Shown here: positions 1 to 10,321 of the stretch, piece after piece | How positions within the stretch are numbered: the stretch's first letter is position 1 | Layout of the letters: every line of letters starts with the position of its first letter | From: Methanomicrobiales archaeon | GTDB lineage: Archaea > Halobacteriota > Methanomicrobia > Methanomicrobiales > Methanospirillaceae | Assembly (NCBI GenBank): GCA_012729535.1 | Contig: JAAYCY010000010.1 | Coordinates: forward strand, 1 to 64,000 | Direction of reading: 5' to 3' | DNA: 64,000 nt | Notes under the pieces: model-generated | What the model was told of the DNA's origin: nothing | Databases searched by the model: none | Seen by the model: only the letters and a program-made list of their open reading frames with translations | Program-made: the position numbers and the translations under genes

Positions 1-502
1 CCTGATCATCTCCTATATCAAACCGCTTAAGGATAATGTCCGGGCCGGTGCAGAGAAAAGCAAAGACCGGACAAAGAACAGGGTTAGAAATGGAAGTTTT
101 TACATTTGTCACACAAGATTTCAGGTCATTTACATGGAGTGAATAAGATTCTGAAATCATTGGCAGTTTTCCAGGATCCACATAGGATACCGCCCCACTA
201 CACCCGGAGAGGATAGTTTTTTTGGGGCCGGGAGAGGTAAAAATATTCGTTGTCAGAACACTGATCCGGTTTTTTTCAGCCCTGATAGATTCAATTTCAT
301 CAATATTCGATATGTAGAGTTCAGTAATGAGAAAACCGGTTACATATTCTTCCTGGTCTCCGGGAGCTAAAAGGACTGTGGCAGCATGCTTTCCATTAAT
401 AAAAATTGCTGTTGGAATCTCGTCATAAAACTGTTTTTTTTGAGCCGGTGATTTTTTGTCACGTGTTCCAGGGTTAGAGAGATCGATGACCTCCATTATC
501 AT
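1..502 (-). CDS. fdhD: FdhD-like formate dehydrogenase accessory protein (partial)
   Basis: The minus-strand frame is open from an ATG at 502 (a second ATG lies at 496) to the window edge, giving 167 residues of the N-terminal part; the 3' end is outside. The protein reads EIPTAIFING near residue 28, GFLITE at 56-61, SGCSG at 99-103 and RFDIGDD at the edge, which follows the FdhD order (EVPVAL, GFLxxEG, cysteine loop, eDIGRHNA). FdhD hands sulfur from a cysteine desulfurase to the molybdenum/tungsten cofactor of formate dehydrogenase. Only one cysteine is seen in the loop where many FdhDs have CxxC. It is divergent from the gene at 559. A divergent FdhD paralogue remains possible. Confidence 0.72.
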   Translation of the reverse strand, partial: MIMEVIDLSNPGTRDKKSPAQKKQFYDEIPTAIFINGKHAATVLLAPGDQEEYVTGFLITELYISNIDEIESIRAEKNRISVLTTNIFTSPGPKKTILSGCSGAVSYVDPGKLPMISESYSLHVNDLKSCVTNVKTSISNPVLCPVFAFLCTGPDIILKRFDIGDDQ

Positions 503-558
503 ACTTATTGCAATATTGAACTTAAAAAACAAGTACTAACCCAAACAATATTATTCAG

Positions 559-1104
559 ATGGCAGAATATAAACCAGAACAAGTATTACCAAATAGTATG
601 AACCGATTGCGTCATAGTTACAGATATCAGTTACAGGTAATCTTTATCATACTCATCATGGCAATCATTAGTTTATCCTCCCCGGTAGCAGGAAATACTC
701 AGGAAAAAACAGAGACCACAGGTTTTTCCATCAGTACAATCACCCTGAAACCAAATGAAACAATAATAAGCCCAGGAATTACTATTACCCCAATCGTAAC
801 AGTAAACAATACCCAGATGTATTCAAACCTAAATGCTACCCTTCAATTCTCAGCTCGACTTGGAAATGTAAACCTGTTATCAGACAAGAAGGAATGGCCG
901 GTTCCCCACGTTGGAGAAGAAAATACATATTTCCTGCGATTTACAATCCCTTCAATTCTACCAGGGGAGTATCAATTAAACCTATCAGCCATCTTGATTG
1001 AGGCAGATAATAGAACAGTAATTCCGTACACAAAAGCAAAGACAGTAGTACAGGTTACTCATCCAAAGCCAGGGTCTGGTTCTCGGGATTGTGGATGTTC
1101 ATAA
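559..1104 (+). CDS. small secreted or membrane-anchored protein, unknown function
   Basis: 181 residues. A hydrophobic segment at about residues 24-46 looks like a signal peptide or N-terminal anchor. The remainder is a beta-rich, Asn/Thr-rich domain that resembles an Ig-like fold in composition, ending in a Gly/Ser-Cys tail. I recognise no family. There is no good ribosome binding site before the ATG at 559, and the ATG at 598 would shorten the N-terminus to a more normal signal peptide, so the start is uncertain. It converges on the pseudokinase gene at 1127-3568, whose ectodomain is also beta-sandwich-like; a functional link is only a guess. Confidence 0.6.
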   Translation: MAEYKPEQVLPNSMNRLRHSYRYQLQVIFIILIMAIISLSSPVAGNTQEKTETTGFSISTITLKPNETIISPGITITPIVTVNNTQMYSNLNATLQFSARLGNVNLLSDKKEWPVPHVGEENTYFLRFTIPSILPGEYQLNLSAILIEADNRTVIPYTKAKTVVQVTHPKPGSGSRDCGCS

Positions 1105-1126: not shown

Positions 1127-3568
1127 TCACATTTCATCACTTTCTAAATAATCAGGTTCTTCTGTTACGTTCCTTAACTCTTCAAGAAAATTTTCTACTG
1201 ATGAGTACCTGTCACGTTTATACCGGGCAATAAGCTTATGAAAACTATTATCATATCGGGCTAATGAGTCATCTCCTACTGACAAACTAATTTTATCATC
1301 GCCCGTTTCAACATTTACACCCTCAGGAGGGAGGATTTTGCCAGTGACAAGCCAGTACCATATTGCACCAAGTAAGAAAATATCCGTTCTTTTTCCAGGC
1401 TTACCAAAAAATACCGGATCGATTTGTTCAGGAGTTCGTGCGAAATACTCCTCGCTCCCGCTCCCACCAACCCTCTTTAGCGATTCACGAATCAAGCCGG
1501 ATATTTTGGGAACCATCGGCTCATCCAGGAGGATATGTTTAGGAGAGAGGTGATAATGACGAACTCCCTGTTTATGCAGGTATGCGAGACCTTCAGATAT
1601 TTTTTCGATGAGAGGCAGCCAGACATCCTCAGGGAGAGGAACAGGAAGGTCAGAAAGGGATATTCGCTGTTTTCCTTCGTAAAAGCCCCCGGCAACATAT
1701 TCAAGTTCAAGCATCACAACCGGGGAAAACTCTGCCCGGAACATACGGAGAACATAGGGATGTTTGAGTTGATACAGCAGTGATATTTCTGTATACAAAG
1801 ATGAACCGATCTTTTCTGTTGTCGTGGGTATCTTAAGCGCCCGCAATTCGCCGTTATCATTCCGGCGTACAAGAATGACCGTTGCAAAGGGATCATCCCC
1901 GAGAACACGGATAGGCGTATATCTATCCAACAGCTCATCAGGATACCCGGGAACATTTGGTTTAATTTCTAAATCCTTTTTTTCTTCTTTTTTCTTTGCT
2001 GCAGAACGAATTTTGTTCAAAGCATCCAGAACGTCCTCATTTGTTGGATCTAACTTTAATATCTCCTCAAGTAATGCAGCTGCTTCCTCTTCAAGACCCC
2101 ACTTGAGAAGGATTTCTGCCTGGTTAATATTTGCCCCAATATTTCCAGGATCAGACTGCAATAAAGACCTGAAATATTCGTATGCCTTCTCTGCTACTCC
2201 CCGTGCCAATAGGGCAATTCCCCGGTTATAAGGGATTTTAATACTCCTGAAAAATTCAGAACCCTCAATCAGAATACGAAGCGGGAGAATTACTTCAGAA
2301 TTATCATCAAGTGGTTCAGATAACTCAATAGGCACTATCCCAAAACCGCCTGCTCCAATCTCCTGGTCTTCAACTGAAATTGCTTTTTCTGAATGATTTG
2401 AGACTCCAAGGCTTGCAGTTGCCGATCCTGGCTTTGTCTTAAGATCCTCAATCCGGACATCAATATTCTCAATCGATTGAGAAATGTTTTTTTTCTGCCC
2501 TTTTGACTCTTTTATTTCACCAGTGCTCTCTTTTATTGCAACCTTTCCCGTTTTTATGTTTTTTCCAGGGTCTTCCAGTCTGGAAGTGTCAGCACTTCCA
2601 GTGCCCCCGGGAGCCGCAGAAGTAACTCCATCAAAGAGTTTTTTCTTACTATGGACTTTCTCAAGAAGTTTTTTCTCTTCTTTTAACTTTTGCAACTCAC
2701 GATCTTCTGGTTCGTTCTCATCCTCTTCATCCCATTTTTCTTCCCTTTGCCGGCGTTTTCTTAGGCCATGGATACCTACAAATGCACACACACCAAGTAT
2801 AAGGAAAATTATTAGGATTAATGGAATATTTGCTTCAATATAACCAAATAAGGTACCATCCGATACAGGCCCTGCACGTTTGATTTCCACAACCGGAGGA
2901 TTTTGATCACCACGAACAAACAGGCGGGTCATCGCTCCCCGTTCAACATCAACCGGAAACATCTGCTCAAATGAATTATTCAAAACACGGATTTCATATC
3001 TACCTGGTTTTAAGTCATCAATTATTGCAGGGGTATTTCCATACGTAAAAGAATCAAGAAAAACCTTCATATCCAGAAAAGGGCTGTCAACAAAAACCGA
3101 GCCATTTACTGGGGATGAAATGCCATCAGTAGGTACAATTTCAACCCGCTTGACATATGTTTCAGTGACTTTTTGATCTCCAACAGCTGATCGCATCACA
3201 ACAGAAAATGAAAGATCATAGGTACCGGGAATCCCCACAGGTAGCAGAGTCAGGCCAAAAGTAGCCATCTTCCCGGGAGTAATATTCATATCCTTCGTTA
3301 ATTCAACAAATGAAGGGATTGCAGTTATTTTAGTGAAATCCCCTTCATATAAAAGACCGAATCTTCTCATTTCGTCTTCCCAGCTGACAAGTCCGCTGTT
3401 TCGAAATGTTACGATGACCGGGTAGGAATGGCCAGGAAGCATCCGATCAGGAATTGTATCACTAATAAAAGACGGCCCAAAACCAGGAATTATTTCCTTT
3501 TCTTGTGCATAGCATGCCGGAATAATGGCAGTGAGTAGTATTAATGCAATAATAATTCTGAAATACAT
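1127..3568 (-). CDS. membrane receptor with PEGA-like ectodomain, TPR and pseudokinase domain
   Basis: 813 residues. Order seen: signal peptide 1-21; outer Ig-like domain about 30-145; PEGA-like domain about 155-218; membrane segment 243-266; charged linker; TPR-like helices about 450-515; protein-kinase fold about 548-805. The kinase fold keeps the ATP lysine (ALK, 577-579), a helix-C glutamate (E594) and a late TPEQ plus TDIFLLG segment. The HRD motif is HYH (671-673) and the DFG position reads SGL after KI (690-692), so both catalytic aspartates are missing. It is probably a pseudokinase that senses surface ligands and signals by binding, not phosphorylation. It is tandem with a paralogue at 3691-5736. 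Confidence 0.82.
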   Translation of the reverse strand: MYFRIIIALILLTAIIPACYAQEKEIIPGFGPSFISDTIPDRMLPGHSYPVIVTFRNSGLVSWEDEMRRFGLLYEGDFTKITAIPSFVELTKDMNITPGKMATFGLTLLPVGIPGTYDLSFSVVMRSAVGDQKVTETYVKRVEIVPTDGISSPVNGSVFVDSPFLDMKVFLDSFTYGNTPAIIDDLKPGRYEIRVLNNSFEQMFPVDVERGAMTRLFVRGDQNPPVVEIKRAGPVSDGTLFGYIEANIPLILIIFLILGVCAFVGIHGLRKRRQREEKWDEEDENEPEDRELQKLKEEKKLLEKVHSKKKLFDGVTSAAPGGTGSADTSRLEDPGKNIKTGKVAIKESTGEIKESKGQKKNISQSIENIDVRIEDLKTKPGSATASLGVSNHSEKAISVEDQEIGAGGFGIVPIELSEPLDDNSEVILPLRILIEGSEFFRSIKIPYNRGIALLARGVAEKAYEYFRSLLQSDPGNIGANINQAEILLKWGLEEEAAALLEEILKLDPTNEDVLDALNKIRSAAKKKEEKKDLEIKPNVPGYPDELLDRYTPIRVLGDDPFATVILVRRNDNGELRALKIPTTTEKIGSSLYTEISLLYQLKHPYVLRMFRAEFSPVVMLELEYVAGGFYEGKQRISLSDLPVPLPEDVWLPLIEKISEGLAYLHKQGVRHYHLSPKHILLDEPMVPKISGLIRESLKRVGGSGSEEYFARTPEQIDPVFFGKPGKRTDIFLLGAIWYWLVTGKILPPEGVNVETGDDKISLSVGDDSLARYDNSFHKLIARYKRDRYSSVENFLEELRNVTEEPDYLESDEM

Positions 3569-3690
3569 CCGGATTAACCAGTTAAGAATCTGATCCGCAT
3601 TCTGCCTATTTATAATGCCCGATACTATCGGTTTGGAATTATCACCGTGAAACGAAGGTCTTTTTCCCCTTATTACCGATAACGATCCTT

Positions 3691-5736
3691 TTATTCACCT
3701 GGAAGGTTTTCCAAATCAGATAATAATTCACTTAACATAAAATACCGTCCGGTTTTTTTTCTGGATAGCATTTTTTGGATGATAGCATCATATTTTTTCA
3801 GATTTTTCCGGATTTCTGAAGGAAGAATTAGCTCATCAGGATATTCTTCAAATGTCCCATTCCTTCCGGATGCACGAAACGCTTCCGGGCTATAGGGCAT
3901 ATAGCCGGTAAGCAGCTCATAAAAGATCACACCGACCTGGTAGATATCGGTCTTTCTTCCAGGATTTCCATATTTTTCACTATTTTTCTGTTCAGGAGTA
4001 ATATATGCAGCGTCTGCATCATGAACATCAGAATCATTGATGGAAAAACCAAGCTCGTTTCTTCCTCTTGCAAAACCAGAGATTTTTGCCCTGAGCTGTG
4101 GAGTCAGCAGAATATCCCCGGTCTGGAGATGATAATGTCGGACTCCAATATCATGGGCATATTTTAGTCCATCAGCGATATCCCGCACTAACGAGACTGC
4201 ATATTTATCCCGGACTGGTTTTGGCAGTCCAGAAAGAGACGTATGGACCATCCCTTTGTAAGATACCCCACCGAGATATTCATTTTCCAAGTATGATATA
4301 TCATCAAGAAATTCTGAACGGAATAAATGAACGATATTGGGGTGCCTAAGTGAGCGCCATACTGCAGTCTCTTTTTGCAGAATTTCGCTCTCCTCCTGTT
4401 TAAGATTACCTACCTTTAATGCCCTTACTGCACCACTGTCCTTTTTCCTTACCTTGTATACACGGGCATAGGAATCCGACCCAGCAACACCCAGAGGTTC
4501 ATACCGATCCCGTAAAGAGTGGGGAAAACCCCACATCCCTTCCATCTCTTTTCCTTCCTGGTCAGGATCCTCCACATCAATTGTGGATTCATTTTCAAAA
4601 GTTTCAATCTTTTTTTTGGTGCCTGAACCATCTTCATGCGGTAATTTTTTGTCTCTGGCAGTTTTACCCTTTCCAGAACCTGCTGCAGAGGCACCTGTTG
4701 ATTTATTATTTCCAGATGCTTTCCCCTGTCCTGAATCACTGATAATATCGCCAGATTTTCCACTTTTCCCCTGCTCTTTGCTAGTCCTTCGGAATTTCAC
4801 TTTTCCATCATGAGATGGTGAAACGAGAATAAAGGGGCGGGCAATCCTTCGGATTGGATGATGCTCAGGAACACGATTGGTATTCATCATGAGAACCTGA
4901 AATCCGAGGAAAAGAACGACAATAGTAATTAAAATGAGGAGGAGATTGTCCAGGAACCATCCCAGCAGAGTGTATTTTTGCAGGTGTTCAATGGTCACAG
5001 ATGGTTTTTCATCTCGAGAGAGATCAACGAACACCCTGCTGACAGACCCCTGCTGTACCTGAACTTCAGTCCATTGTGACGGAAAACCAGGGTGATTAAT
5101 CGTTATAATGTATTTTGCAGGATTCAGGTCAGGTAGTATCAGGGGCGTTTTACCCTTTTCTTCACTTCCCATCAAAACAGTGGCATCTGATGGATCTGAA
5201 TCGATAATTATTGAACCAACTGAACCTGAAGAAACACCCTCTTTGGGAATAATGGTAATTTTTTTGGTGTAACTATTTGGAAACGGAGTGTACCTGTTCT
5301 CTCCCTTACGGGTAGACATGGAAAAACTCAGTTCATATTCACCTGGTTTATCAGGAGGAGTGAGAGTAAAGGGGAATTGGTATTCATTCTGTGTTTCTAC
5401 CTTTATTCCTGAAGGAATCTGAGAAAAGACAGGAACAACTTCAATTGAGGATTGCAGGCCCTGGTACATGAGTCCGAATTTTTCAACACCCCATTCCCAT
5501 GAAACCATGCCATTGTTTCGGTACGTAATTGTCACTGGATAGACGGATCCGGCTTCCAAAACATGCGGAATAGTGTCAGATACATAATTCCCCATGTAAT
5601 AGCCAACACCTGCAGTTGGATCTGAATTATAAACGTTATCCGCCCCTAATGCAGGACTAACCAGATATAGCAGAATTATGAGGATCAGTACAAAAATCCT
5701 CCAATGATTGGAATTTTCACCTGCTATATGTTTCAT
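3691..5736 (-). CDS. membrane receptor with PEGA ectodomain and pseudokinase domain (paralogue)
   Basis: 681 residues: N-terminal signal/anchor about 12-31, Ig-like domain about 55-165, PEGA domain 172-240, membrane segment about 262-283, a Ser/Gly/Lys-rich linker to about 395, and a C-terminal kinase fold from about 405. K441 (RALKV) and E456 are kept, but HRD is HYH (534-536), the lysine after it is Gln, and the DFG region reads KISGFARG (551-558) without the aspartate. It has the same ectodomain order as the neighbour at 1127-3568 but no TPR block. The shared HYH signature argues for inherited loss of catalysis rather than two accidents. It is divergent from the ligase gene at 5794. Confidence 0.82.
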   Translation of the reverse strand: MKHIAGENSNHWRIFVLILIILLYLVSPALGADNVYNSDPTAGVGYYMGNYVSDTIPHVLEAGSVYPVTITYRNNGMVSWEWGVEKFGLMYQGLQSSIEVVPVFSQIPSGIKVETQNEYQFPFTLTPPDKPGEYELSFSMSTRKGENRYTPFPNSYTKKITIIPKEGVSSGSVGSIIIDSDPSDATVLMGSEEKGKTPLILPDLNPAKYIITINHPGFPSQWTEVQVQQGSVSRVFVDLSRDEKPSVTIEHLQKYTLLGWFLDNLLLILITIVVLFLGFQVLMMNTNRVPEHHPIRRIARPFILVSPSHDGKVKFRRTSKEQGKSGKSGDIISDSGQGKASGNNKSTGASAAGSGKGKTARDKKLPHEDGSGTKKKIETFENESTIDVEDPDQEGKEMEGMWGFPHSLRDRYEPLGVAGSDSYARVYKVRKKDSGAVRALKVGNLKQEESEILQKETAVWRSLRHPNIVHLFRSEFLDDISYLENEYLGGVSYKGMVHTSLSGLPKPVRDKYAVSLVRDIADGLKYAHDIGVRHYHLQTGDILLTPQLRAKISGFARGRNELGFSINDSDVHDADAAYITPEQKNSEKYGNPGRKTDIYQVGVIFYELLTGYMPYSPEAFRASGRNGTFEEYPDELILPSEIRKNLKKYDAIIQKMLSRKKTGRYFMLSELLSDLENLPGE

Positions 5737-5793
5737 CAGACCACCTGAGAACAGAAGAAATGTATAAACATTTCTTGCACCTATGATTCAAAA

Positions 5794-7146
5794 ATGCACG
5801 CATCAGGATATCTCAGACCAGAAATTGAAATGATGAATTATCAGGATCTGGAGGCTTTAATTGATGAGCGTATTAGATACACAGTCCATTATGCTGCAGA
5901 AAATTCTCCATTTTATAAAAAATTCTTCAGGGAACATAATTTTTCTCCGGATGATATCACCAGTCATGAAGACCTGCTTGAATTGCCAGTAATAAACGGC
6001 CAGGTAATCAGGGAAAACCAACCACCAGTATCACCTGATTTTATGATGAAAAGTATGGACTGGAAGAAAATCTATACGATACATGAAACCAGCGGAACAA
6101 GCGGGACTCCAAAGAGTTTTTTCCTTTCCTGGGATGACTGGAAACGATATGCAGAAAAATATGCACGGATTTTTGTTTCACAAGGATTTGGGCCGGGGGA
6201 CCGCATGATCATCTGTGCCAGTTACGGGATGAATGTGGGAGCTAATACCATGACTCTTGCAGCTCGTGATGTTGGAATGAGTGTTATTCCAACTGGTAAG
6301 TGCACCTTTCCTATACGACTGATCCAGTCATATAGGCCCACCGGAATTGTGGGGAGTGTTTTCAAATTCATACGTCTGGCGCGGAGAATGAAAGCAGAAG
6401 GGATTGATCCGAGATCATCAAGCCTGGAACGCCTGATTATTGGGGGAGAGAGTTTTGCAGATGAATCCAGAAAATACGTCCAGGAACTCTATGATTGTGA
6501 GGTCTACAACAGCTATGGAAGCACAGAAGGGACCATGTGCGGAGAATGCAAGGCAGTATCAGGACTTCACGTCCCGGAAGACATTGTTCATCTTGACATA
6601 CATGATCCCAGGCACCAGAAGTTTTTACCTGACGGTGAAGAGGGGCATATTGTCCTGACAACCCTGTTAAAACCTGGAGAAAAATGTGGATCGTTACTTA
6701 TTAATTATGATACAGATGACACAACAAAGGTCATCAGTAGAAACCGGTGTCCTTGTGGACGCACCCACATGAGAATCCAGAATCCCTGGCGTGAATCAGA
6801 GACCATCCAGATCTTCGAGGTGCCGATTAACCGGATAGACATTGAACGTGCAGTATTCCAGCCGGAAAACCTTCCTTCCCTTACCGGAGAGTACGAGGCA
6901 TTTGTATACGGAGATGAAGAAAATGAAATAACACTCCGAATATCAGTTGAGGCGGAAGATAAGGATGCCTGCAGTGTCCATGATATCACAGATAGTATTT
7001 CCGGCACAATCCTGAAAGAAAAATCCGAACTGCAGGGAAGCTATGATGATGGAATATTTAAAATTCTCGTGCATATCACTGGCCCTGGAGAACTTGAACT
7101 ACACCAGGTACGGGGAAGACCAAAACGGCTGATTGATAGAAGATAG
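5794..7146 (+). CDS. phenylacetate-CoA ligase / coenzyme F390 synthetase family protein
   Basis: 450 residues of the ANL adenylating superfamily, PaaK branch. Seen: the phosphate loop SGTSGTPK (100-107), YNSYGSTEG (238-246), INYDTDD (303-309) and a CPCGR motif (319-323) typical of PaaK-type enzymes. Family members activate aryl acids as acyl-AMP and then CoA esters; methanogen members include coenzyme F390 synthetase, which adenylylates coenzyme F420. The sequence alone cannot separate these roles. Met13 and Met14 are alternative starts; the first ATG is used because the alignment runs from the N-terminus. Its stop lies 2 nt from the convergent end of cmk. Confidence 0.75.
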   Translation: MHASGYLRPEIEMMNYQDLEALIDERIRYTVHYAAENSPFYKKFFREHNFSPDDITSHEDLLELPVINGQVIRENQPPVSPDFMMKSMDWKKIYTIHETSGTSGTPKSFFLSWDDWKRYAEKYARIFVSQGFGPGDRMIICASYGMNVGANTMTLAARDVGMSVIPTGKCTFPIRLIQSYRPTGIVGSVFKFIRLARRMKAEGIDPRSSSLERLIIGGESFADESRKYVQELYDCEVYNSYGSTEGTMCGECKAVSGLHVPEDIVHLDIHDPRHQKFLPDGEEGHIVLTTLLKPGEKCGSLLINYDTDDTTKVISRNRCPCGRTHMRIQNPWRESETIQIFEVPINRIDIERAVFQPENLPSLTGEYEAFVYGDEENEITLRISVEAEDKDACSVHDITDSISGTILKEKSELQGSYDDGIFKILVHITGPGELELHQVRGRPKRLIDRR

Positions 7147-7148
7147 CC

Positions 7149-7685
7149 CTAATCCAAACGGTTTAAGGCAGTAATTGCAGAAGAAACAATACTTCCCAAT
7201 TGCTCAACAGTCCACATTTCAGTATCAAGCACCATGTGATAGGGAGTCAGTGACCCGATATCAATACCATAATACTGGTGGTAACGAAGGGCTTCACTCG
7301 CCTCCCGGTTTTCAGTCGCTGACATAGCTGCCTGCATGTCAGCGAACTGGTCACGATCAAGGATTCGTTTTACCCTGCATTCAAGTGAAGCTTTCAGCCA
7401 GATCTTCAGATCGGCCTGTGGAATCATCCAGCCAGACAATCTCCCTTCTGCAATGATATGGGGATTTGAAAGGACAATATCCCGTTGCCGTTCATCAATC
7501 AGCTTATCCACAAAAGGATCATTCTCACAAAACGCTCCGAATTCTGCCAGAGACATATTCCGTTCCTTTGCCATCTGTCTGAATACTTCGCCAGCTGAAA
7601 TGACATCAAAACGATGAATTTCTGCGAGATGATAGGTAAGTGAGGTGGTCCCACTCCCTGGAAGACCGCTTATTGTGATTCGCAT
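7149..7685 (-). CDS. cmk: cytidylate kinase, archaeal type
   Basis: 178 residues from the ATG at 7685. A P-loop, GLPGSGTTS, lies at residues 7-15, followed by helices and the arginine-rich lid of the nucleoside monophosphate kinase fold. It phosphorylates CMP/dCMP to the diphosphate. Start and stop are fused with the upstream EMC3-like gene as TGATG, so translation is probably coupled; a TTG one codon upstream is less likely. It is the last gene of the ribosomal superoperon, an order (secY-adk-EMC3-cmk) common in Euryarchaeota. Confidence 0.9.
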   Translation of the reverse strand: MRITISGLPGSGTTSLTYHLAEIHRFDVISAGEVFRQMAKERNMSLAEFGAFCENDPFVDKLIDERQRDIVLSNPHIIAEGRLSGWMIPQADLKIWLKASLECRVKRILDRDQFADMQAAMSATENREASEALRYHQYYGIDIGSLTPYHMVLDTEMWTVEQLGSIVSSAITALNRLD

Positions 7686-8290
7686 CAAAGGCCCCCAATG
7701 TCAAGGGCCTTCCTGATAACCTGTGAGAGAGTGATTGAACAAAGCATGTACCAGATAATCCAGGCTGGAGCAGGTCCTAGTATCAGATCTGTCAGGTGAA
7801 CCATACCAAAGAACGGCATGTTTATCATGGCATCATAATTGTTTAGACGAAATATAAGCCAGAAAAATATGGGGAGTGTAATCACCATGATATAACCCAT
7901 GGGTTTAAACTGGGCCTGGCTCATCTCCATCTGGTCCTTCATCATGTGGTCACGCTTGGTTTCAAGTTTTTTAATCCGTTTTTCATCTTTTGACAGCATC
8001 GCTTCCCGGTATTCTTTCTGGAACTCTTTCATCCGGTTCTGGGTCTCTTTCATCTTTTTATAATCAATCGTATATTTCTGGATAATAGATGAGTAAAAAC
8101 CAGTCATTGCAGAAAGAATGATGATAACAATGTAAAATGGAATAAAAAAAGTGTCCACAAGAGGACCCAGTACAACATTGAGGGTCGTACCGATGGTATT
8201 CCTGACTGACTCAATACTTGCTATAAATAACAGCCCCATTGCAAGGATCAGGGGCATCATACTCATTGTTGCAGATTTTGAAGATGCCAT
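7685..8290 (-). CDS. EMC3/TMCO1 (DUF106) family membrane insertase, YidC-like
   Basis: 201 residues with hydrophobic segments near 11-30, 46-66, 133-150 and 165-190 and a charged coiled-coil between segments 2 and 3 (about 72-125). This layout matches archaeal DUF106/Ylp1, the Oxa1-YidC-EMC3 superfamily, which helps insert membrane proteins beside the ribosome. Its place directly after secY and adk in the ribosomal operon supports a role in protein export. The ATG at 8290 sits 5 nt after the adk stop. Confidence 0.85.
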   Translation of the reverse strand: MASSKSATMSMMPLILAMGLLFIASIESVRNTIGTTLNVVLGPLVDTFFIPFYIVIIILSAMTGFYSSIIQKYTIDYKKMKETQNRMKEFQKEYREAMLSKDEKRIKKLETKRDHMMKDQMEMSQAQFKPMGYIMVITLPIFFWLIFRLNNYDAMINMPFFGMVHLTDLILGPAPAWIIWYMLCSITLSQVIRKALDIGGL

Positions 8291-8295
8291 TAAAA

Positions 8296-8868
8296 TTACC
8301 TGAGGGTCTGGACCATATCTTCAACTGCTTTTTCAAGCAGGAAGTCAGGATTTTTAATATATCTGACAGTACAGCCGGTAAACATAGCATAAGATGCTGC
8401 AACCGCACGGTTAAAATCCTGATGGTCCTGAATATCCCGATATCCCTCGATATCACGCACCCGGGTTGGATCAGATAACCTTCTCTTTAAAATCTGATCT
8501 GAATCTGTTTCAACAAGGATGATAATATCGGGTTTTAATTCCTTCAAAACCCATTCAGGAAGTCCGGCCAGAAAACCGGATGGTGTCTTTACTGATGCAT
8601 GAGTATCGATGATAACATTTCCATCGATCCGGGCAATCGCCTGGGAAGCCAGTTGCTGAAGTCGTTTTTGAGTATTTTTATCCAGTTTACGCATTTCATC
8701 GCGATCCTGGACCATATTTTCTTTTTGTGCCACTTCAAACATAAAGGTACCAAAATTAATACTCTGATATGGTACCCCTTCTTCCTCAAGCCGTCTGATT
8801 GACTCGGTAATGACCGAGGTCTTACCGACCCCGGGCACTCCGGTAATGATGACTTTCTTCCCGGTCAT
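8296..8868 (-). CDS. adkA: adenylate kinase, archaeal AdkA type
   Basis: 190 residues from the ATG at 8868. The open frame runs further upstream into secY, but family alignment begins at MTGKK. P-loop GVPGVGKTS at residues 9-17; DRDEMRKLD and DTHASVKTP segments match the archaeal AdkA family, which interconverts ATP, AMP and ADP and is distinct from bacterial Adk. It begins 14 nt after the secY stop (8882), within the ribosomal-export operon. Confidence 0.92.
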   Translation of the reverse strand: MTGKKVIITGVPGVGKTSVITESIRRLEEEGVPYQSINFGTFMFEVAQKENMVQDRDEMRKLDKNTQKRLQQLASQAIARIDGNVIIDTHASVKTPSGFLAGLPEWVLKELKPDIIILVETDSDQILKRRLSDPTRVRDIEGYRDIQDHQDFNRAVAASYAMFTGCTVRYIKNPDFLLEKAVEDMVQTLR

Positions 8869-8881
8869 ATTGAAATCTCTT

Positions 8882-10321
8882 TTATTCTTTACCAAAGAAT
8901 GTTCGCATGAACGGATACATTTCCATGATCTGTTCACTGGCGATCTGTTCATACAATCGGTACGTAATGGAAACGGTAAGTAACAGACCAGTCCCTGAAA
9001 CTGAACCAATCACACCAAAGAGGTTTGCAACTACCGACATTATCCCAATAAATACTCCTCCGATAATGGTAACACGGGGGATGTACCGGTCAAGAACTTT
9101 TTCAAGTACTGCCGGATTACGTCGATATCCCGGAATTGACATTCCGGACATCTGGATCTGTCTTGCAACGGCCTTTGAATCAAGACCGGCAGTTTTGACC
9201 CAGAATAATGCAAACACTGCACCACCCACTACCATGAAGATGGTATCCAGTCCCAGGCGGATGAGGACTTCCCATGGAAGATGACCTCCGATGTAATTTG
9301 GCATCCACCACATCCAGTCAGAAGGACTGTTGATCGGAGCCAGGAACCACATCAGGCCACTTGTTGGTGTCTGACCCTCAAATGTTCCAAAGATTGTGAT
9401 TCCAATATTATTCAGGAACAAACCAATCATCTGGAAATTTGCCTGAAGAACACGGACAAGAATCATCGGGAGCACACTTGCATAAATCAGTTTGACAGGA
9501 AACCTGGCCCTGGCACCCCTGACCTGCGTATGTGCAAGTGGAATCTCCACGCGGGTAGATTCAACATACACGATAAGCAGGAATATTGCGATGGTAGTGA
9601 TGAATGCAATTAATTCTGTCCCAAAGTACTGAATGAAATTTGCTCCATCAAGCACGACTGCAAAAAGTCTGGGGAAGAAACCCACCGGATATGCATCATT
9701 CACCGGAGCCCAGTTAATGAAACCATTGATTATCGCTTCGGATATACCTGCAATAATAAACAGCCCAACACCTGAGCCTATCCCCCACTTGGTAACCACT
9801 TCATCCATCATGAAGATGAGAACCCCGCCAATACAGATCTGTATGAAGATCAATATCGAGAGGAGAGCAGCATTTCCTCCAAATAGTGCAGATGCAATAG
9901 TTGGATCCGGTTTTAAGAAACCTCCGACAATCATCGGAAGTGCTTCAACAACGATCATGATGAAGATCATGAGTTTTTGAAGACCCATGTACTGGATTTG
10001 ACCACGGATTTCTGAGGTATCGATATGAATAAGGTCAGCACCCTTGAGGAGCTGTAAAACAATAGAAGCAGTAACAATCGGACCGATACCAAGGTGGACA
10101 ATCGATCCACTCGACCCCGCAAGCAGGGCACGGAAATACTCAAACATATCCTGTGATTCAGCAGAAAGGCCAAATAGAGGAATGTTCGTGAGAATAAAAT
10201 AGACAATTAAAATTGCAGCAGTCCATGCTAATTTGTTCTTAAAGTGAACATGGCCTTCTGGCGCTTTCACTGCCGGCATCTTAGCCAGAATCGGCTCCAT
10301 CCGGTCGAGTATCTCACCCAT
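8882..10321 (-). CDS. secY: preprotein translocase subunit SecY
   Basis: 479 residues with about ten membrane segments and a conserved N-terminus (LDRMEPILAKMPAV) that places it in the archaeal SecY/Sec61-alpha family. It forms the protein-conducting channel of the cytoplasmic membrane. Plug and pore regions are in the usual order, and the C-terminal tail carries the ribosome/SRP-receptor binding loops. It follows L15 by 21 nt, in the standard archaeal spc order. Confidence 0.96.
   Translation of the reverse strand: MGEILDRMEPILAKMPAVKAPEGHVHFKNKLAWTAAILIVYFILTNIPLFGLSAESQDMFEYFRALLAGSSGSIVHLGIGPIVTASIVLQLLKGADLIHIDTSEIRGQIQYMGLQKLMIFIMIVVEALPMIVGGFLKPDPTIASALFGGNAALLSILIFIQICIGGVLIFMMDEVVTKWGIGSGVGLFIIAGISEAIINGFINWAPVNDAYPVGFFPRLFAVVLDGANFIQYFGTELIAFITTIAIFLLIVYVESTRVEIPLAHTQVRGARARFPVKLIYASVLPMILVRVLQANFQMIGLFLNNIGITIFGTFEGQTPTSGLMWFLAPINSPSDWMWWMPNYIGGHLPWEVLIRLGLDTIFMVVGGAVFALFWVKTAGLDSKAVARQIQMSGMSIPGYRRNPAVLEKVLDRYIPRVTIIGGVFIGIMSVVANLFGVIGSVSGTGLLLTVSITYRLYEQIASEQIMEMYPFMRTFFGKE

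Follow-up and report, generated by a model that had tools for sequence, protein, structure and literature searches.

Two tandem genes of a Methanospirillum contig encode putative membrane receptors, here named K1 and K2, whose kinase domains keep the beta3 lysine and the helix-C glutamate and have lost the aspartates of both the HRD and the DFG motifs. Their prediction as catalytically dead proteins is well supported, as is the view that purifying selection maintains the dead active site throughout the genus. The simplest reading is that catalysis was lost once, in an ancestor of a small family that was then amplified in tandem.

The window analyzed comprises 64,000 nucleotides and begins at the edge of the 68.6-kb contig. 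Both genes lie on the minus strand, K1 upstream and K2 downstream (Table 1). An AMP-ligase gene is divergent from K1, with secY-adk-DUF106-cmk genes farther out; on the other side, a convergent gene for a 181-aa protein and a truncated frame similar to the formate dehydrogenase accessory gene fdhD follow K2. The K1-K2 cluster contains neither a gene for an active kinase nor one for an FHA or PP2C protein; such genes are located elsewhere in the genome.

Table 1. Features of the window and of other Methanospirillum loci (positions with a prefix refer to loci other than the window).
Feature	Position	Strand	Details
K1, receptor pseudokinase, 681 aa	3691..5736	-	ORF, Pfam, model
K1 PEGA domain	5014..5217	-	residues 174-241; Pfam PF08308 1.4e-09
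K1 transmembrane helix	4888..4965	-	about residues 258-283 (or 255-287), hydropathy; 265-283 in model
K1 pseudokinase domain	3706..4524	-	residues 405-677; PknB best by sequence and fold
K1 beta3 Lys441, kept	4414..4416	-	
K1 helix-C Glu456, kept	4369..4371	-	
K1 HYH (534-536) replacing HRD	4129..4137	-	12/12 K1-type genes
K1 ISGFA (552-556)	4069..4083	-	Gly554 at DFG Asp site, then Arg557
K2, receptor pseudokinase, 813 aa	1127..3568	-	ORF, Pfam
K2 PEGA domain	2957..3103	-	residues 156-204; Pfam 2.3e-06
K2 transmembrane helix	2765..2830	-	about residues 247-268 (or 238-271); hydropathy
K2 cytoplasmic TPR block	2009..2212	-	residues 453-520; Pfam TPR_19 1.9e-07, 31.7 bits, cut-off 25
K2 pseudokinase domain	1169..1942	-	residues 543-800
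K2 beta3 Lys579, kept	1832..1834	-	
K2 helix-C Glu594, kept	1787..1789	-	
K2 HYH (671-673) replacing HRD	1550..1558	-	11/11 K2 orthologues
K2 ISGLI (689-693)	1490..1504	-	Gly691 at DFG Asp site, then Arg694
Small beta-sandwich protein of 181 aa, exported or anchored in the membrane	559..1104	+	convergent with K2, 22 bp apart
fdhD-like frame	1-535	-	truncated by contig start
AMP-ligase gene	5794-7146		divergent from K1
K3	L039:8880-11417; L073:5407-7899; L078:6107-8725		HYL and GFD motifs; in several, Arg for Lys and Gln for Glu
Membrane TPR protein after K3	L039:11356-12585; L073:4276-5403; L078:4794-6113		signal helix, TPRs, C-terminal transmembrane helix
Paralogue of the 181-aa protein and PP2C gene	L132:4391-4909 and 4923-5789; L133:4579-5346 and 5358-5969; L134:4977-5510 and 5520-6296		
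Predicted active kinases	L136:6437-8897; L137:4716-6730		each beside an ArsR-type HTH-FHA protein
Kinase domains with HKN/HGN for HRD	L004 (G000:C42:227996-228694); L005 (G000:C25:3982-4725)		987- and 1921-aa frames; DFG-like Asp kept
PP2C-type gene, then 1115-aa protein	L139:5776-6555, then 6558-9902		weak partial kinase match in the 1115-aa protein

Both proteins belong to the Hanks-type (eukaryotic-like) kinase fold. The Pfam Pkinase profile scores 82.1 bits (5.6e-23) in K1 and 55.6 bits (6.8e-15) in K2, with a curated cut-off of 31.7, and the best matches of the K1 kinase domain are to PknB, both by sequence profile (1.7e-26) and by fold (Foldseek, 3e-15; TM-score over target 0.70-0.81). 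K1 runs from an N-terminal signal-like helix through an ectodomain of NBR1-type Ig-like and PEGA domains, one transmembrane helix and a linker to the kinase fold. K2 likewise has a signal-like helix, an ectodomain homologous to that of K1 (~33% identity), a PEGA domain and one transmembrane helix, followed by TPRs and the kinase fold. In K1, the NBR1-type Ig match scores 17.5 and so misses the curated Pfam cut-off of 28. The AlphaFold model of K1 has a confident beta-rich ectodomain (residues 49-251), a disordered linker (about 296-400) and a kinase region mostly at pLDDT 60-95, with the activation loop below 50. A positively charged flank follows the transmembrane helix in the hydropathy analysis. 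As predicted from sequence and model, this is the layout of a single-pass receptor (signal helix, ectodomain, transmembrane helix, cytoplasmic kinase), and we infer its orientation. A sequence-only reading of the window had proposed Ig-like plus PEGA ectodomains, one membrane helix and an intracellular kinase fold for both genes, together with a TPR block in the gene at 1127-3568 (K2). All of these elements were recovered, the Ig-like domain of K1 by way of the modelled beta-rich fold and that of K2 by homology.

The same reading had described HYH in place of HRD, a missing DFG aspartate and a retained ATP lysine and helix-C glutamate in both genes, and each residue is found as described (Table 1). 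By the accepted reading of sequences, a kinase fold counts as a pseudokinase if it lacks any one of the beta3 Lys, the HRD Asp and the DFG Asp (PMC12599244), and both aspartates are absent in 23/23 of the K1 and K2 domains compared. The APE glutamate, the helix-F aspartate and the late arginine are also retained. By alignment, the losses exceed the two aspartates and include the Gly-loop glycine, the catalytic-loop lysine and mostly the asparagine as well: an aspartate (D421 in K1, D559 in K2) takes the place of the second Gly-loop glycine, Lys168 (PKA numbering) is replaced by Gln or Ser, and the Asn171 site (PKA numbering) is occupied in K1 by Asp or Asn, in K2 by His or Tyr. We searched the K1 and K2 alignment for a catalytic acid placed elsewhere and found no conserved Asp/Glu column between E486 (hinge) and E582 (APE) (K1 numbering); a relocated catalytic acid was rejected for want of a candidate column.

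The locus was collected from each of the 12 Methanospirillum genomes and from the one related genome that gave a full-length match. Kinase domains of 11 K1 and 11 K2 proteins from the genus and of one K1-type single copy from a Methanospirillaceae MAG (n=23) were compared with those of 28 predicted active archaeal kinases. HYH, the missing DFG aspartate, the lysine, the glutamate and the Gly-loop aspartate each occur in 23/23 domains, and a normal HRD/DFG pair in 0/23, whereas both catalytic aspartates are present in 28/28 kinases of the active set. The conservation of HYH and of the DFG-site glycine is more than chance, because these residues are invariant although just 41 of the 280 alignment columns are. 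The tyrosine of HYH and the derived arginine that precedes the motif are also found in 23/23 domains, and an arginine at DFG+1 is present in 22/23, compared with 0/28 active kinases, all 28 of which have Leu or Met. In K1 as in K2, the HYH codons show synonymous changes only (CAT/CAC, TAT/TAC). Most dN/dS values of the kinase domain lie at 0.03-0.14, with 0.23 in one close K2 pair; dS is saturated in several pairs, for which the values are rough. K1 and K2 were found in fixed order in 7/7 near-complete Methanospirillum genomes, with intact frames wherever a genome covers the full gene. These findings agree with the earlier proposal of a conserved, selected loss of catalysis. A pseudogene or a sequencing error was rejected, as the residues are identical genus-wide in two paralogues and dN/dS is low. 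Of 108 genomes of the family, the 12 of Methanospirillum and one relative are the only ones with strong full-length matches to the ectodomain profile; outside Methanospirillum, a contig scan with peptide patterns, of limited reach, detected just one Methanospirillaceae MAG and one distant bacterial kinase.

Most Methanospirillum species carry a third tandem gene, K3, which is more degenerate than K1 and K2. Its motif is HYL (HFL or HNL in two), the DFG aspartate is absent, and the lysine, the glutamate or both are lost; in genomes G200 and G198 it is without the Ig-like ectodomain. In some species, this gene may be drifting. The window genome has no K3, and its pair is a remnant of the three-gene array of most relatives. 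The contig edge was rejected as the cause, since the gene at 559-1104 comes directly after K2 and is followed by the truncated fdhD-like frame. The receptor pair of the sequence-only reading holds as a tandem of pseudokinases, within a family of two or three paralogues. A membrane TPR protein is encoded directly after K3 in three loci. It occurs only where the K3 ectodomain is full, being absent in the window genome, G200 and G198, and this distribution suggests that it is an extracellular partner of K3.

In a maximum-likelihood tree, all 31 K1-K3 domains fall into one clade (100/100), and the sister group (100/99) consists of kinases of other Methanomicrobiales that have HLD/HHD and DFG and are predicted to be active. 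Long branches meet inside the K1-K3 clade and the K2-K3 grouping (94/76) is unsure, and the monophyly of the whole clade was alone used. Given one K1-K3 clade and sister kinases that keep HxD/DFG, the sequences are most simply read as a single loss of catalysis before duplication, followed by tandem triplication. Independent losses of the HRD aspartate in K1 and K2 were rejected because the single clade shares the derived GVRHY and the Gly-loop aspartate. The presence of HYH in both copies, taken earlier as a sign of selected loss, is indeed conserved and selected, and reflects one ancestral loss, not two.

In the 181-aa protein encoded at 559-1104, a hydrophobic helix at the N terminus is combined with a beta-sandwich and with a CxC that is conserved at the C terminus. 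The convergent orientation of its gene places it outside the K1/K2 operon. It adjoins the receptors in 9/12 genomes of the genus, the other three being fragmented at that place, and outside the genus only weak matches were found, in 3/96 family genomes; it is as genus-restricted as the receptors. A structure search returned generic beta-sandwich matches only (NPC2, CARDB, NBR1), which do not reveal a type of ligand. A distant paralogue (BLAST 22% identity, 4e-6) is convergent with a PP2C gene, a few bases apart, in three inspected loci, and profile matches of the paralogue and PP2C are adjacent in four more genomes. This arrangement hints at a link of the 181-aa protein to phospho-signalling and gives no hint of a ligand role; its proposed function as a ligand or partner of the receptors is unproven.

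PknB has a single-pass topology with an ectodomain, and the PASTA receptor kinases PknB and StkP resemble K1 and K2 in this topology and in the kinase domain. However, K1 and K2 have PEGA and a weak Ig match instead of a PASTA ectodomain, which sets them outside the PASTA kinases, the chain is reversed, with the ectodomain N-terminal and the kinase C-terminal in K1 and K2, and the catalytic base and the metal aspartate are absent from them. The sister kinases L012 and L014 (with TPRs) and L013 (a membrane receptor with a Kelch ectodomain and a CARDB/HYDIN-like domain, encoded beside PP2C) have kinase domains 33-35% identical to that of K1. Unlike K1 and K2, they have HLD/HHD, DFG, a GEGGFA loop and K-P-x-N, and are predicted to be active.

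STRAD-alpha is a human pseudokinase activator of LKB1. Its sequence HRSVKASHILI...YLSGLR (PDB chains) resembles HYHLSPKHILL...KISGLIR of K2, with a histidine at the Asn171 site and Gly-Leu followed by an arginine. In STRAD-alpha, the arginine of GLR and this histidine replace the cation in ATP binding (PMC4718504). The likeness is convergent only, as the best 60 PDB matches are PknB, StkP, MARK, CDPK and similar kinases, which places K1 and K2 outside the STRAD family. The STRAD arginine lies one residue earlier than that of K2, and STRAD is no receptor. Cation-independent ATP binding and partner activation of the STRAD type would be a parallel of motifs only. For K1, MLKL offers another parallel, with GFE for DFG (GFA in K1) and HGK for HRD (PDB chains); MLKL binds ATP without Mg (PMC8141879), is homologous to K1 in fold only, and has a four-helix domain that K1 and K2 lack. 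Seven bacterial pseudokinase families (ActPs1-3, GLW, CP1, DYD, DLHK) are, like K1 and K2, conserved, lineage-restricted and in several cases membrane-bound proteins of the Hanks fold (PMC12599244). In these families all three motifs, or the ATP and metal motifs, are divergent (PMC12599244), whereas the beta3 lysine is kept in 23/23 K1 and K2 domains without VAIK divergence; by this motif pattern alone K1 and K2 fall outside the seven. No archaeal family is named in this review, which appeared in 2025 and covers bacterial pseudokinases (PMC12599244).

Pseudokinases usually serve in allosteric activation, switching, scaffolding or competition (PMC8141879). We lean slightly toward a joint reading of K1 and K2, with K3 where present, as non-catalytic receptor switches that probably dock to or tune active kinases. 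A ligand from the envelope or a neighbour cell would bind the Ig/PEGA ectodomains and alter the association among the receptors, whose kinase folds would act as non-catalytic docking or allosteric partners and phosphorylate nothing themselves. Residues that hold the kinase fold, namely the Lys-Glu pair and the anchors of the C-lobe, are kept in K1 and K2. The target would most plausibly be an active membrane Ser/Thr kinase of the same cell, encoded beside an FHA-HTH regulator. The genus has active-type membrane Ser/Thr kinases (HRD or HCD, DWG) encoded beside proteins that combine an ArsR-type HTH with an FHA domain. It also has a further TPR kinase, with FHA and PP2C genes nearby, and several phosphatases of the PP2C type. 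The partner kinase is the weakest step of the mechanism and its identity a guess, because the active kinase, FHA and PP2C genes are all outside the K1-K2 cluster. Binding of any nucleotide would need no divalent cation, as is the case for STRAD-alpha and MLKL, and candidates for a metal stand-in are the arginine at DFG+1 and, in K2, also the His/Tyr at the Asn171 site. By this analogy, cation-free binding has at best an even chance of being real. The Gly52 position in the nucleotide loop has been called critical (PMC8141879); its change to aspartate argues against ordinary nucleotide binding, and the STRAD-like idea may thus be wrong.

Two predicted active kinases (L136 and L137 in Table 1) are each encoded beside an ArsR-type HTH-FHA protein, and such neighbours possibly form an archaeal kinase-to-transcription-factor pathway conserved in the genus. 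In a bolder version of the switch reading, an all-dead K1-K2-K3 receptor complex would sense the envelope or a syntrophic partner and control this kinase-FHA-transcription-factor pathway in trans, with a STRAD-like arginine (and histidine) replacing the metal; we give it only a small chance.

K1 and K2 could instead be pure scaffolds, tethering cytoplasmic proteins to the envelope by means of the TPRs of K2 and the surface of the kinase fold, for example in sheath or S-layer positioning, with no influence on kinases. The TPRs of K2, the exported membrane TPR protein that follows K3, the confinement of the family to sheath-forming Methanospirillum and one relative, and the cluster without an active kinase, FHA or PP2C gene all fit such a role. 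However, the pseudo-active site (HYH, Lys, Glu and the DFG+1 arginine) is conserved like the fold residues, which suggests a role of the pocket, and scaffolding alone has in our view a modest chance of being the answer. The invariant pocket residues could also point to an atypical enzyme. Some sequence-predicted pseudokinases, namely CASK, SelO and SidJ, proved catalytic, and phosphotransfer or another transfer might proceed via a relocated residue, as in these and in WNK; the beta3 lysine and helix-C glutamate are invariant (23/23), and the His and Tyr in HYH, both invariant and derived, might serve as new residues of the active site. Such activity is quite unlikely, as the hinge-to-APE segment holds no invariant Asp/Glu in K1 and K2, Gly52 is Asp in all 23 domains, and the Lys168 and Asn171 sites differ between the two paralogues.

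Competitors are a recognised class of pseudokinases (PMC8141879), and the same genomes encode active membrane kinases with FHA-HTH partners, for whose ligand, substrate or FHA partners K1 and K2 might compete as decoys and so damp signalling. We would be surprised by this outcome: in the tree, K1-K3 have no close kin among the genus's active kinases, and the ectodomain profile gives strong full-length matches in the K1-K3 cluster only. That the genes are simply decaying on their way out is hardly credible. K3 has been lost from the window genome and elsewhere lacks the Ig-like domain and mostly the Lys/Glu, but K1 and K2 have intact frames where covered, low dN/dS and synonymous-only changes in HYH; for these two, decay is refuted by the intact frames and purifying selection.

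Two kinase domains of the same genome (L004 and L005 in Table 1) have HKN or HGN for HRD and possibly represent other pseudokinases or atypical kinases. Elsewhere, a PP2C-type gene precedes that of a 1115-aa protein with a weak partial kinase match (L139), and most Methanospirillum genomes show a comparably weak kinase match close to a PP2C gene.

Most of what is known about receptor pseudokinases comes from animals and plants, and those of prokaryotes have for the most part not been put to the test. Pseudokinases as such occur in all domains of life (PMC8141879). Among the papers searched, we found no archaeal receptor family with the K1/K2 motif pattern, although an earlier mention in a survey table is possible, and nothing of use turned up on archaeal PEGA kinases. 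What is apparently new here is a putative archaeal receptor pseudokinase family that keeps the beta3 lysine and has lost the HRD and DFG aspartates. In a cultured organism, M. hungatei JF-1, one can see catalysis lost a single time, a sister group predicted to be active, genes duplicated in tandem and conservation throughout the genus. K1 and K2 thus provide a clean natural experiment in which a receptor kinase turns into a non-catalytic signalling protein, and an entry point to environment sensing by a sheath-forming, syntrophic archaeon.
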